A stretch of 41,156 bases of DNA from Oscillospiraceae bacterium (lineage in GTDB: Bacteria; Bacillota; Clostridia; Oscillospirales; Oscillospiraceae). Positions 36,505 to 40,167 of the stretch are shown here, in pieces; within the stretch, counting starts at the first letter, position 1; the number at the start of each line of letters is the position of its first letter. The notes under the pieces were generated by a model that did no database searches, was not told where the DNA came from, and saw only the letters and a program-made list of their open reading frames with translations. Where the stretch lies: NCBI GenBank assembly GCA_017622295.1, contig JAGARK010000044.1:1-41156 (forward strand), written 5' to 3'. Position numbers and translations under genes: made by a program.

Positions 36505-38502
36505 TTACTTCTTGCCGCTCAGAGCGTACTCTGCGGCCAGATTGCTGTTGGTCTTCTTAATCAGATAAACCACAACGGCAACCATCACAGCAACTGCGAT
36601 CAGGCCGGGCAGGAAGCCTGCGCCCAGAGCGCCGGTAGTGATCAGAGTACCGATCTGATAAACCAGGTAAGCAACGGCAAAGCCGGTAGCGAACTGCAGC
36701 GCCACACCGCCCCAGAACCACTTGCGGTCGTTGATCTCGGAGTTCATAGCACCCAGAGCTGCGAAGCAGGGAGGAGTGTACAGGTTGAACATCAGGTAAG
36801 CCAGAGCAGCAACCTTGGTGATGGCCATGACGCCTGCGACCTCAGCGCCGGCACCTTCCATCATAGCCAGCTCTTCGGTGTCGATCAGGTTCTCCAGGCC
36901 GACGAAGCAGACAGCCAGAGTACCGACAACGTTCTCCTTGGCGATAAAGCCGGTGACAGCGGCAGCTGCCAGCTGCCAGGAAGCAACACCGACAATGGGA
37001 ATCAGCAGGACTGCGATGGGGCTTGCGATGGAAGCCAGGATGGAATCGCTGGCGACCTCAGCCTCGACAAAGCTCCAGGTGAAGGTCTGCATGATCTGAA
37101 CAACGGTGTTGCAGACCAGGATGACGGTACCAGCCTTGACGATGTAGGCCCAGCCGCGGGAGCACATATCCTTGAATGCACGCTTCAGGGAAGGAACCTT
37201 GTACTCGGGCAGCTCAATGATGAAGAAGGACTTGCGGTTCTTGTGGCCGGCGATCTTGTTGACCAGCAGAGCGCCCAGCAGGATCAGGGCGATACCCACG
37301 AAGTACATCAGGGTGCCCACCCAGGAAGCATCCTCGAAGAATGCGCCTGCGAACAGGGCAATAACGGGCAGCTTTGCGCCGCAGGGCATGAAGGGAGTCA
37401 GCATAGCGGTAGCGCGGCGCTCCCGCTCATTGCGGATGGTGCGGCAGGCCATGACGCCGGGGATGGCGCAGCCGGTGCCGACGACGAAGGGGATAACGGA
37501 CTTGCCGGACAGGCCTACCTTCTTGAAGATGGGGTCCAGAACGATGGTGGCACGAGCCATGTATCCGCAGTCTTCCAGCAGGGAGATCAGGAAGTACATG
37601 ACCATGACCAGAGGCAGGAAGCCGATAACAGCGATGACGCCGCCGATGACGCCGTCAACCAGCAGAGCCTGCAGGATGGGAGCAGCATCAGCAACCAGTT
37701 CACCGACCCAACCCTGGAAGGATTCCAGCCAGGCAACCAGAGTGTCAGCCAGCAGGGGGCCAAAGGAGGACTGAGAAATATCAAACACCAGGAACATGAC
37801 GGCGGCAAAGATCACCAGGCCACCGATGGGATGGGTCATAACAGCGTCGATCTTATCCTGGACGTTCTTATCCTTGGTCAGGACCTTACGGGTCTCGACC
37901 TTGTCAACGATCTTATTGACGAATTCAAAGCGCTTGCGGTCAGCCGCCTCAACTTCCAGCTTGCTGGTCAGATCCACATTGCCCTGGTCATAGGGAGCCT
38001 TCTGGGTCTTACCATTCAGCGCAGCAGCCGCATGAACAACCTCCTTCAGACCGTCGCCGGTGGTGGAGGTGGTGTCCACAACGGGGCAGCCCAGCTTCTC
38101 ACTGAGCAGCTGGGTGTTGATTCTGGTTTCCTTCTTGTTGTTGATGTCATGCTTATTCAGGGCAACGACAACAGGAATACCAAGCTCCAGCAGCTGGGTG
38201 GTGAAGAACAGGCTGCGGCTCAGGTTGGTGGCGTCCACGATGTTGATGATGACATCGGGATTTTCGTTCTTAACATAGCCGCTGGTGATGCTCTCTTCGG
38301 AAGTGAAGGGAGACATGGAGTAAGCGCCGGGCAGGTCAACTGCGATCAGTTCCTGCTCACCAGCATAGGCCTTCTTGATCAGAGCCTCTTTCTTGTCAAC
38401 GGTAACACCTGCCCAGTTGCCGACCTTTTCGTTGCGGCCAGTCAGAGCATTGTACATGGTGGTCTTACCGGAGTTAGGATTGCCCGCAAAAGCAATTCTC
38501 AT
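36505..38502 (-). CDS. feoB: ferrous iron transport protein B
   Basis: FeoB is the membrane Fe(II) transporter with a cytosolic GTPase domain. In the 665-residue protein the G motifs are GNPNSGKT at residues 7-14 (G1), DLPG at 56-59 (G3) and NKHD at 116-119 (G4). The membrane part has both Gate-like regions, VVGTGCAIPGVMACRTI and FMPCGAKLPVIALF, with their conserved cysteines. It ends in about eight hydrophobic helices. The ATG follows GAGGAGG. It lies 141 bp downstream of feoA. That gap contains a stem-loop and two of the GRTTAG palindromes, so expression may be set apart from feoA. Confidence 0.97.
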   Translation of the reverse strand: MRIAFAGNPNSGKTTMYNALTGRNEKVGNWAGVTVDKKEALIKKAYAGEQELIAVDLPGAYSMSPFTSEESITSGYVKNENPDVIINIVDATNLSRSLFFTTQLLELGIPVVVALNKHDINNKKETRINTQLLSEKLGCPVVDTTSTTGDGLKEVVHAAAALNGKTQKAPYDQGNVDLTSKLEVEAADRKRFEFVNKIVDKVETRKVLTKDKNVQDKIDAVMTHPIGGLVIFAAVMFLVFDISQSSFGPLLADTLVAWLESFQGWVGELVADAAPILQALLVDGVIGGVIAVIGFLPLVMVMYFLISLLEDCGYMARATIVLDPIFKKVGLSGKSVIPFVVGTGCAIPGVMACRTIRNERERRATAMLTPFMPCGAKLPVIALFAGAFFEDASWVGTLMYFVGIALILLGALLVNKIAGHKNRKSFFIIELPEYKVPSLKRAFKDMCSRGWAYIVKAGTVILVCNTVVQIMQTFTWSFVEAEVASDSILASIASPIAVLLIPIVGVASWQLAAAAVTGFIAKENVVGTLAVCFVGLENLIDTEELAMMEGAGAEVAGVMAITKVAALAYLMFNLYTPPCFAALGAMNSEINDRKWFWGGVALQFATGFAVAYLVYQIGTLITTGALGAGFLPGLIAVAVMVAVVVYLIKKTNSNLAAEYALSGKK

Positions 38503-38560: not shown

Positions 38561-38578
38561 GGTTAGTTTGCGCTAATT
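38561..38578. promoter_or_regulatory. operator palindrome 1 (feoA-feoB gap)
   Basis: GGTTAG-TTTGCG-CTAATT. One half-site is perfect and the other is partly matched. It starts exactly 20 bp from palindrome 2, two helical turns, so both could be bound on the same face. Confidence 0.65.
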
Positions 38579-38580
38579 TT

Positions 38581-38598
38581 GGTTAGTTTTCGCTAACC
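38581..38598. promoter_or_regulatory. operator palindrome 2 (feoA-feoB gap)
   Basis: GGTTAG-TTTTCG-CTAACC is a perfect 6+6 inverted repeat with a 6-bp centre, between feoA and feoB. With palindrome 1 it could control feoB separately from feoA or act as a roadblock to read-through. Confidence 0.75.
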
Positions 38599-38606
38599 TC
38601 GCAGGG

Positions 38607-38628
38607 AAGACAATCAGCGGATTGTCTT
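38607..38628 (-). other. stem-loop after feoA
   Basis: AAGACAATC and GATTGTCTT form a 9-bp perfect stem with a 4-nt loop, 16 bases after the feoA stop. No U-run follows in the minus-strand RNA, so it is not a standard terminator. It could stabilise the feoA message or cause partial attenuation before feoB. A third GACAATC copy lies at 38639-38645. Confidence 0.55.
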
Positions 38629-38643
38629 TGGCTTTTCAGACAA

Positions 38644-38856
38644 TCAGATCTGAATTGCCTCGGCCAACTGATCGTCGATGCTGTATCTTCCGTCCTTCAC
38701 TGAGATCACACAGCTGCCTCTGCGGCGGGAAACCACCGTAATCGGCTCACCAGTGTAACAGCCCAGAGAAAACAGGAATGCATTCAGATCTTCGTCATCA
38801 GTATCGATCCGCTGAATGATGTACTCCTTGCCTTCCAGTGCGTTCTTCAAATTCAT
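38644..38856 (-). CDS. feoA: ferrous iron transport protein A
   Basis: FeoA is a small SH3-like cytosolic protein that works with FeoB. The 70-residue product has the family pattern of a basic N-terminus (MNLKNALEGKEYIIQRIDTDD). It is followed by LFSLGCYTGEPITVVSRRRGSCVISVKDGRYSID and QLAEAIQI, with the typical LGCYTGEPI turn. The ATG at 38856 follows AGGTG with good spacing; a GTG three codons upstream overlaps that site. It is the first gene of the feo operon. Its promoter and operator are shared across the divergent region with the DUF3793 gene. Confidence 0.93.
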   Translation of the reverse strand: MNLKNALEGKEYIIQRIDTDDEDLNAFLFSLGCYTGEPITVVSRRRGSCVISVKDGRYSIDDQLAEAIQI

Positions 38857-38887
38857 ATTTTTCACCTGATTCAGATTCTCTACAGTC

Positions 38888-38905
38888 GATTAGTTTCCGC
38901 TAACC
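38888..38905. promoter_or_regulatory. operator palindrome 3 (feoA leader)
   Basis: GATTAG-TTTCCG-CTAACC lies in the feoA leader, about 35 bp downstream of the predicted transcription start. Confidence 0.72.
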
Positions 38906-38921
38906 AACAGTCTGTAATAAC

Positions 38922-38939
38922 GATTAGCTCTCGCTAACC
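38922..38939. promoter_or_regulatory. operator palindrome 4 (feoA start site)
   Basis: GATTAG-CTCTCG-CTAACC lies immediately after the predicted start site of feoA (8 bp past the -10 box), a classic repressor position. Confidence 0.78.
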
Positions 38940-38947
38940 GCTTTATT

Positions 38948-38976
38948 ATAATATCGCTCCAGCTTTCATTTGTCAA
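38948..38976 (-). promoter_or_regulatory. sigma-A promoter of feoA-feoB
   Basis: On the minus strand TTGACA (38976-38971), a 17-bp spacer and TATTAT (38953-38948) are followed by AAT. It shares TTGACAAATGAA and TATTATAAT with the opposite promoter at 39036-39064. Confidence 0.85.
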
Positions 38977-39035
38977 TACTTTTTTTGAAAAAACAGTATT
39001 TCATGGAAATTTTTGAAAATAATAAAAATTCCCTC

Positions 39036-39064
39036 TTGACAAATGAAGGTGGATGTCATATTAT
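39036..39064 (+). promoter_or_regulatory. sigma-A promoter of the DUF3793-flavodoxin operon
   Basis: TTGACA (39036-39041), a 17-bp spacer and TATTAT (39059-39064) lie upstream of the DUF3793 gene. The box sequences and the bases next to them repeat those of the divergent feoA promoter, which lies 59 bp away. Confidence 0.85.
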
Positions 39065-39070
39065 AATCGC

Positions 39071-39088
39071 GGTTAGCGGCTGCTAACT
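39071..39088. promoter_or_regulatory. operator palindrome 5 (DUF3793 start site)
   Basis: GGTTAG-CGGCTG-CTAACT begins 6 bp after the -10 box, over the expected start site of the plus-strand operon. Confidence 0.78.
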
Positions 39089-39104
39089 ATTCTTTCCTTT
39101 CTTC

Positions 39105-39122
39105 GGTTAGCAGCAACTAACC
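39105..39122. promoter_or_regulatory. operator palindrome 6 (DUF3793 leader)
   Basis: GGTTAG-CAGCAA-CTAACC is a perfect inverted repeat in the leader, about 20 bp upstream of the DUF3793 start codon. It could block elongation or translation as well as transcription. Confidence 0.75.
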
Positions 39123-39144: not shown

Positions 39145-39708
39145 ATGTCCGAAGATATTCTGGTGCGCCACGGCGCCCCTACCCTGGCGGGGATCAAAAC
39201 CGCCAGTCTGTTTACCTGCCCCTGCACCAACCGTCAGGAGCTTCTGGATGATATTCGCCAAATGAACCGGCGTCTGCATCCCAAGGGCCTGCGGATTCTT
39301 CCCCTTCGCTTCTCCGAGAACAAGGCACTCATCTACATTTACCGGCCCAGAAAGCTGACCCGCGACCTGGCCGATTCCGATGCAGCAAACATCCTCCGCC
39401 GGGAAGGTTACGACACCGGCAGCTGCGAAAAATGCGTGGTGAAGCTGGTGCAGAAGCTCCGCCAGGACGGTGTTTTTCCCCATGAGATCGGTCTCTTCCT
39501 GGGGTATCCCCCGGAGGATGTGAAGGGCTTCATCGAAAAGGGTCCCGATTGCTGCAAAGCCAGCGGCTGCTGGAAGGTTTACGGCGATGAGGAGTCCGCA
39601 AAAAAGAAATTCGCCCAGTTTAAAAAGTGCACCCAGGTCTACTGCGACCAGTGGGCCAGGGGTAAAGGTATTGATCGGCTTGCAGTCAAAGACCGCGCCG
39701 CCGGATAA
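39145..39708 (+). CDS. DUF3793 family protein, iron-regulated candidate
   Basis: This 187-residue cytosolic protein belongs, as I recognise it, to DUF3793, a Clostridia family without known function. Nine cysteines (residues 25, 27, 94, 97, 136, 137, 142, 162 and 167) come in groups (CPC, CEKC, CC-x4-C and C-x4-C). The most family-like stretch is FPHEIGLFLGYPPEDVKGFI at 111-130. The cysteine groups suggest metal, heme or cluster binding, but no known binding motif is certain. The ATG at 39145 follows GGAGG with 8-nt spacing; a GTG three codons earlier overlaps that site. It leads the flavodoxin operon and is controlled by the operators shared with feoA. Confidence 0.82.
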   Translation: MSEDILVRHGAPTLAGIKTASLFTCPCTNRQELLDDIRQMNRRLHPKGLRILPLRFSENKALIYIYRPRKLTRDLADSDAANILRREGYDTGSCEKCVVKLVQKLRQDGVFPHEIGLFLGYPPEDVKGFIEKGPDCCKASGCWKVYGDEESAKKKFAQFKKCTQVYCDQWARGKGIDRLAVKDRAAG

Positions 39709-39744
39709 TATATTGATTTTTTGATTGAAAGGTTGGAACATTCT

Positions 39745-40167
39745 ATGAGCAAAATTGCAGTAGTATACTGGAGCAGCACCGGCAACACCGAAGCAATGGC
39801 AAATGCCGTTGCCGAAGGCGCCAGAAACGCAGGCGCCAACGTTGCCCTCTATACCCCCGAGGATTTTAACGCATCCATGGTCGATCAGTTTGACGCCATT
39901 GCATTCGGCTGCCCCGCCATGGGCGCAGAGGTTCTGGAAGAGAGCGAATTCGAGCCCATGTTCAGCGATTGCGAGAGCAAGCTCTCCGGCAAGAAGATCG
40001 CCCTCTTCGGCTCCTACGGCTGGGGCGACGGAGAATGGATGCGGACCTGGGAAGATACCTGCCGCAATGCCGGTGCAAACCTGGCCTGCGACAGTGTGAT
40101 CTGCCAGGAAGCCCCCGATGACGACGCCGACGCTGATTGCAGAAGCCTGGGCGCCGCTCTGGTATGA
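39745..40167 (+). CDS. flavodoxin
   Basis: This small FMN protein carries electrons and often replaces ferredoxin when iron is short. The 140-residue product has the FMN phosphate loop WSSTGNTEAMA near residues 9-19. It also has FGCPAMGAEVLEESEFEP, and FGSYGWGDGEWMRTWEDTCR near residue 90, where the aromatic residues and Gly would contact the flavin. It is a short-chain flavodoxin in length. The ATG at 39745 is preferred over a TTG at 39721, though the AAAGG site upstream has long spacing. It follows the DUF3793 gene by 36 bp and shares its promoter, which fits an iron-sparing role. Confidence 0.93.
   Translation: MSKIAVVYWSSTGNTEAMANAVAEGARNAGANVALYTPEDFNASMVDQFDAIAFGCPAMGAEVLEESEFEPMFSDCESKLSGKKIALFGSYGWGDGEWMRTWEDTCRNAGANLACDSVICQEAPDDDADADCRSLGAALV

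Follow-up and report, generated by a model that had tools for sequence, protein, structure and literature searches.

Introduction

According to a passage of a 2023 review (PMC10317159), low-GC Gram-positive bacteria rely on Fur to control iron and on DtxR proteins to control manganese. The same review, where it treats the DtxR family, places IdeR boxes over the transcription start site or the -10 element and reports that Met and Cys ligands raise Fe(II) selectivity, while MntR has Asp/Asn and Glu at these positions. In the DNA-contact part of an IdeR study (PMC8464063), repeats 1 and 3 of the box are assigned to a single IdeR dimer, which can also bind a lone half-site; the occurrence of IdeR half-sites in other species and their role is named as an open question in the review passage (PMC10317159). 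Those family members reported to lack the SH3-like domain do not respond to Fe(II) in vivo, according to an excerpt of PMC7762939.

Here we describe six TTAG-N6-CTAA palindromes at a feo locus of the Clostridia. Judging from sequence and gene context, we consider it highly probable that they are operators of a short, SH3-less, Fe(II)-activated repressor of the DtxR family, two of them covering the predicted start sites of two operons, feoAB and DUF3793-flavodoxin.

Results

Palindromes of the feo locus

The window (the whole stretch of 41,156 bases) was searched with the pattern GRTTAG-N6-CTAAYC, allowing one mismatch. Six matches were found, all identical with the palindromes of the original prediction and none elsewhere, and their coordinates were verified (Table 1). 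The count is far above chance, since 100 dinucleotide shuffles of the window gave 0.11 matches on average and at most one. The described placement was confirmed as well: sites 4 and 5 follow the -10 boxes of divergent promoter-like sequences, sites 3 and 6 lie in the leaders, and sites 1 and 2 fall within the feoA-feoB gap. The flavodoxin gene begins 36 nt downstream of the DUF3793 gene in the same orientation. The two divergent promoters are themselves inverted copies of each other, with 78% identity over 32 nt (38945-38976 versus 39036-39067).

Table 1. Genes, predicted promoters and putative operators at the feo locus of the window
Feature	Position	Strand	Description
feoB, ferrous iron transporter	36505..38502	-	PF02421, PF07670, PF07664
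Putative operator 1, GGTTAGTTTGCGCTAATT	38561..38578	.	feoA-feoB gap; pattern match
Putative operator 2, GGTTAGTTTTCGCTAACC	38581..38598	.	feoA-feoB gap, offset by 20 bp relative to operator 1; pattern match
feoA	38644..38856	-	PF04023, 51.6 bits; ATG start; listed and scanned ORF begins at GTG 38865
Putative operator 3	38888..38905	.	feoA leader, 34 bp downstream of operator 4 (feoA direction)
Putative operator 4	38922..38939	.	covers predicted start site of feoA; begins 8 nt past the -10 box
Predicted feoAB promoter	38948..38976	-	TTGACA-N17-TATTAT
Predicted DUF3793-flavodoxin promoter	39036..39064	+	TTGACA-N17-TATTAT
Putative operator 5	39071..39088	.	over predicted DUF3793-flavodoxin start site, 6 nt after -10 box
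Putative operator 6	39105..39122	.	DUF3793 gene leader, 34 bp downstream of operator 5
DUF3793 protein	39145..39708	+	PF12672, 195.5 bits; ATG start after GGGGAGG picked by eye; listed and scanned ORF begins at GTG 39136
Short flavodoxin	39745..40167	+	PF00258; TIGR01753 over cut-off; start picked by eye

Sites 1 to 4 had been regarded as directional because of a CG before CTAA. The CG is common to these four sites, but the flanks are nearly symmetric in 205 related sites (C after TTAG in 60%, G before CTAA in 62%), so the CG is mostly part of a palindrome GTTAGC-N4-GCTAAC. A mild asymmetry was seen one position farther inward (G 34% versus C 14% at the mirror place). In such site sets the near-invariance of TTAG and CTAA is partly by construction, being required by the search pattern.

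Comparison with known DtxR-type sites

The half-site had been likened to that of DtxR/IdeR, and this likeness holds, TTAG/CTAA being the common core. The proposal of an altered spacing (6 bp in place of 1 bp) was refuted by the IdeR/DtxR 19-mer TTAGGTTAGSCTAACCTAA itself, in which TTAG-N6-CTAA begins at position 1 and again at position 6, giving two overlapping sites 5 bp apart. N6 is thus the normal geometry of one dimer, and the 1-bp centre came from comparing the 19-mer's inner half-sites, each of which is bound by a different dimer. With as many as 3 mismatches allowed, the IdeR 19-mer had no match in the window, and an overlapping second site at the 5-bp offset of a two-dimer box accompanied 4 of the 205 related sites. 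The sites of the window are of the one-dimer half-site type, TTAG-N6-CTAA without an overlapping second site.

The system is like the actinobacterial IdeR/DtxR regulon in its TTAG/CTAA core, N6 dimer geometry, start-site operator and iron-uptake targets. It differs in having single-dimer sites instead of the 19-bp box, in the base before CTAA, which is mostly G (GCTAA, 62%; C 4%) and not C (CCTAA), in a short regulator without SH3 domain, and in its clostridial host. To explain the GCTAA preference, a Gln43-to-Arg change in the recognition helix was considered, but it was rejected, since regulators with Ile or Val at that position adjoin the same kind of sites. The nearest single-site precedent is the half-site TTAGGNNNNCCTAA of Saccharopolyspora erythraea IdeR, with one dimer per 14-bp site and equal spacing; as described in the relevant part of PMC8464063, it stands beside full boxes at the nuo promoter, whereas here half-sites are nearly the sole class found and are often paired 33-36 bp apart.

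Recurrence in related feo loci

For the FeoB type of the window, sites were present in 29 of the 30 best genus loci (own locus included) and in 73 of the 80 best among 586 named loci. Pooling these 110 loci and removing 5 duplicates left 105 nonredundant regions ahead of feoB from related Clostridia, all of the window's FeoB type and not of the more distant one. Sites occurred in 97 of the 105 (217 sites; reversed pattern, 0), and none was found in the remaining eight (L208, L219, L221, L225, L241, L251, L253 and L105). A site lies more than 250 nt upstream of feoB in 84 loci and 20-140 nt before feoB in 80, with both in 67.

When RTTAG/CTAAY was scanned with gaps of 0 to 15, gap 6 gave 238 matches, gap 1 gave one and the others 0-3, except gap 10 (13 matches, mostly extended gap-6 sites); the reversed control reached at most 10, at gap 4. 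Promoter-like sequences scoring at least 10 numbered 99, and 80 of these had a site between -30 and +60 nt. The distance from the -10 box to the start of the first site is 6-8 nt in 66 of the 80 promoter-site pairs. Two sites lie no more than 60 bp apart in 42 cases, and in 35 of these the spacing is 33-36 bp.

The proposed DtxR-family regulator

No regulator gene had been seen in the window, and indeed no PF01325 (DtxR N-terminal) match was found in the whole assembly, window included; this assembly is 75.6% complete and gave no DtxR homologue. Homologues are present in 55 of 61 genus genomes and in all 18 of good quality, the six genomes without one being at most 82% complete, and the PF01325 score exceeded its cut-off in 26 of 30 genomes, the window's own being one of the 30. 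The regulator of the window's species is presumably encoded in the unassembled part of its genome.

A dtxR gene is divergent from feoA in 22 of the 110 feo loci (16 of 80 named, 6 of 30 genus). With one duplicate dropped, sites lie between both genes in 17 of 21 such loci, and in 15 of 19 when two near-duplicates are left out. In four loci with divergent dtxR (L189, L192, L193 and L212) a site was found only between feoA and feoB; the regulator of each of these four carries Asn in place of Met. The original proposal, a compact iron regulon controlled by a DtxR-like metal repressor, is supported by recurrence of the sites beside iron genes and by the frequent physical linkage of a DtxR-family gene.

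The regulators could be aligned by sequence to DtxR, IdeR and MntR of known structure, with homology to the DtxR N-terminal helix-turn-helix and dimerisation regions. The 14 aligned regulators have 119-133 residues, end 15-29 residues after the ligand His and lack the C-terminal SH3-like domain, as does MntR. In length, two-domain build and best solved-structure match they are like Bacillus subtilis MntR and other short DtxR-family proteins; their closest solved structures and best NCBIfam models are MntR, the NCBIfam scores lying below the curated cut-offs. This build and these matches, together with the missing in vivo Fe(II) response reported for SH3-less members in the excerpt of PMC7762939, count in favour of an MntR-like alternative, in which a DtxR-family repressor acts at the sites with Mn(II) or another divalent metal as the cellular metal. 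The ligands argue against it. The primary metal site is of the Met10-Cys102-Glu105-His106 type of DtxR/IdeR in 35 of the 40 distinct genus regulators tabulated, a set in which close relatives of the query are favoured since 30 of the 40 were the best-scoring matches of the genus search. The selectivity pair of MntR (Asp/Asn with Glu) was not found: 35 regulators carry Met and Cys in place of Asp8 and Glu99 of B. subtilis MntR, three carry Asp and Cys, and two are divergent, one of these being Val-Glu-Glu-Gln. Met with Cys favours Fe(II) according to the review passage (PMC10317159). Among all regulator rows, 64 of 94 have Met-Cys-Glu-His and the remainder mostly Asp or Asn with Cys-Glu-His; the latter type is common outside the genus, where several such regulators are feo-linked, and one of the three Asp-type genus regulators (L044) adjoins feoA-feoB with a site. 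These Asp/Asn ligands speak for the manganese alternative. The targets include iron genes, unlike those of MntR, and feoA, feoB and flavodoxin make up an iron-limitation set. We regard a repressor serving Mn(II) or another metal as unlikely, and iron as the probable metal.

The ancillary ligands of DtxR are His79, Glu83 and His98. His79 is retained in most regulator rows. Of the 40 genus regulators, 38 have Thr, Ser or Arg at position 83 and the other 2 have Lys or Cys there, and none has His at position 98, so the ancillary set is not conserved.

An unrelated regulator using a similar half-site had also been considered in the original prediction. It could be, for example, a Fur-family protein, with the dtxR linkage incidental. 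In its favour, a Fur-family match was found in 19 of 21 genomes, 18 of them with a single one. The only match of the window's own genome (L267) adjoins rubrerythrin- and ferritin-like ORFs (by eye), a neighbourhood that PerR often has. The site motif, which differs from the Fur box, is the DtxR/IdeR half-site at single-dimer spacing, and dtxR is repeatedly divergent from feoA with sites in between. This explanation is now very unlikely.

Sites beyond the feo loci

A genome scan had been proposed to see whether sites lie ahead of iron genes. The strict pattern RGTTAG-N6-CTAACY matched 70 places in 21 genus genomes, against 4 for the reversed control, and the sites recur beside feoA, feoB, DUF3793, a CydD-like ABC exporter and dtxR. 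One genome (G011) gave no strict-pattern match, yet it has variant sites at its feo locus. By raw count, 44 of the 70 strict sites have a FeoA, FeoB, DUF3793, CydD-like exporter or DtxR start no farther than 350 nt away. For the CydD-like exporter, the second types of FeoA and FeoB, and the enzymes, the query sequences had themselves been taken from site loci; this count excludes the enzymes but includes the exporter and these Feo types. A Feo gene start is within 350 nt of 23 sites (raw count) and a DUF3793 start within 350 nt of 16, while for 26 of the 70 none of these core genes was found within 350 nt.

In the window's own genome, a site pair 34 bp apart precedes the CydD-like exporter (L015; best NCBIfam match CydD, below cut-off). 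A further pair, 33 bp apart, precedes a 47-aa ORF (L017), and its first site fills the spacer between -35 and -10. This placement bears on the idea that the sites act as RNA, with 5'-end GGUUAGC-N4-GCUAACC hairpins controlling transcript stability and the DNA palindrome incidental: four of the six window sites are in predicted leaders and the palindrome can give a stem of 6-7 bp, but the L017:4060 site would not be transcribed from that promoter, and in a gap search that covered stems of this sequence it was gap 6 with exactly this sequence that was enriched. We consider an RNA role extremely improbable, and DNA operators of a DtxR-type repressor remain our preferred reading.

Several short transcripts may follow such sites. 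At L016:3706-3960 (G000:C4, same genome) a putative operator begins 7 nt past the -10 element of the promoter-like TTGACA-N17-TATATT. Behind it comes a 254-nt stretch that has no convincing ORF and ends in a terminator-like stem. The folding of this stretch is much better than that of shuffled sequences (z -6.5), and its unpaired parts include C-rich segments complementary to Shine-Dalgarno sequences, a likeness to iron-sparing small RNAs. A conserved small RNA behind G000:C4:72705 was rejected, since 135 other genus genomes gave one weak 41-nt match with no operator within its 3-kb locus. Rfam searches of L015-L017 returned nothing but tRNAs over gathering scores. At L017:4060-4303 (G000:C4) and L154:1559-1720 (G049), putative operators in or just after promoter-like sequences are followed by ORFs of 47 aa and 36 aa (the latter by eye), each with a hydrophobic stretch; these are possible iron-regulated small membrane proteins. 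In two genomes (L136:1130-1483 and L155:993-1346) a small protein with an N-terminal hydrophobic stretch is encoded directly behind a putative operator, and it carries the heavy-metal-associated domain PF00403 (domain match shown for L136).

Discussion

In the proposed mechanism, each TTAG-N6-CTAA palindrome would take up one dimer of the DtxR-type repressor. When iron is plentiful, dimers at operators 4 and 5 would cover both start sites and exclude RNA polymerase. Those bound at the partner sites, 34 bp farther downstream, and between feoA and feoB may reinforce this block or serve as roadblocks. Under iron shortage, the metal would leave the repressor and both operons would be switched on, providing ferrous uptake (FeoAB) and an iron-free electron carrier (flavodoxin). 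By analogy with IdeR, start-site repression by the iron-loaded dimer, with a second dimer 34 bp downstream reinforcing it, is the most likely mode. Since 34 bp (about 3.2 turns) places the two dimers on different faces, direct contact is not assumed. What the sequences show is the sites, their placement relative to promoter-like sequences, their recurrence and, in relatives, the linked dtxR gene, mostly with iron-type ligands; repressor binding, iron as the co-repressor and the direction of the response are inferred.

Several findings count against this reading: the statement on SH3-less members (PMC7762939), the DtxR search that found no gene in the window's own assembly, the 8 of 105 feo regions without a site, the 26 of 70 strict sites with no core gene nearby, the four loci with divergent dtxR whose only site is between feoA and feoB, the Asp/Asn-type and divergent regulators, and the replaced ancillary ligands. 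The first, as worded in the excerpt of PMC7762939, either speaks against an iron response or makes it more interesting.

DUF3793, a family whose function is not known, directly precedes the flavodoxin gene under the same putative operators (window 39145-40167). Together with the 16 strict sites near a DUF3793 start, this suggests a role of DUF3793 in iron limitation. The open-access full texts searched contained nothing on DUF3793 beyond a single paper, on a fungus, and the putative operators give a handle on this family.

DtxR-type regulation itself is known; a DtxR-type iron regulon in Clostridia that consists almost wholly of half-sites would be new, and by the terms tried, no open-access title or abstract dealt with such a single-dimer system. 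As a tentative extension, which is doubtful as a whole, a clade of gut Clostridia may have replaced Fur in iron control by a short SH3-less DtxR-type repressor acting on single-dimer start-site operators, often in 34-bp pairs, and in the window's species the same switch may also drive an iron-sparing small RNA that is not conserved, along with very small membrane proteins. What these loci of gut bacteria offer is a putative half-site regulon whose promoter geometry is fixed, together with an SH3-less regulator bearing iron-type ligands. Several hosts are named strains and not MAGs (L203, L207, L217, L226 and L229), among them the cultured Angelakisella massiliensis (L217) and Fournierella massiliensis (L229), so the occurrence and role of half-sites, and an iron response of SH3-less regulators, are now directly testable.
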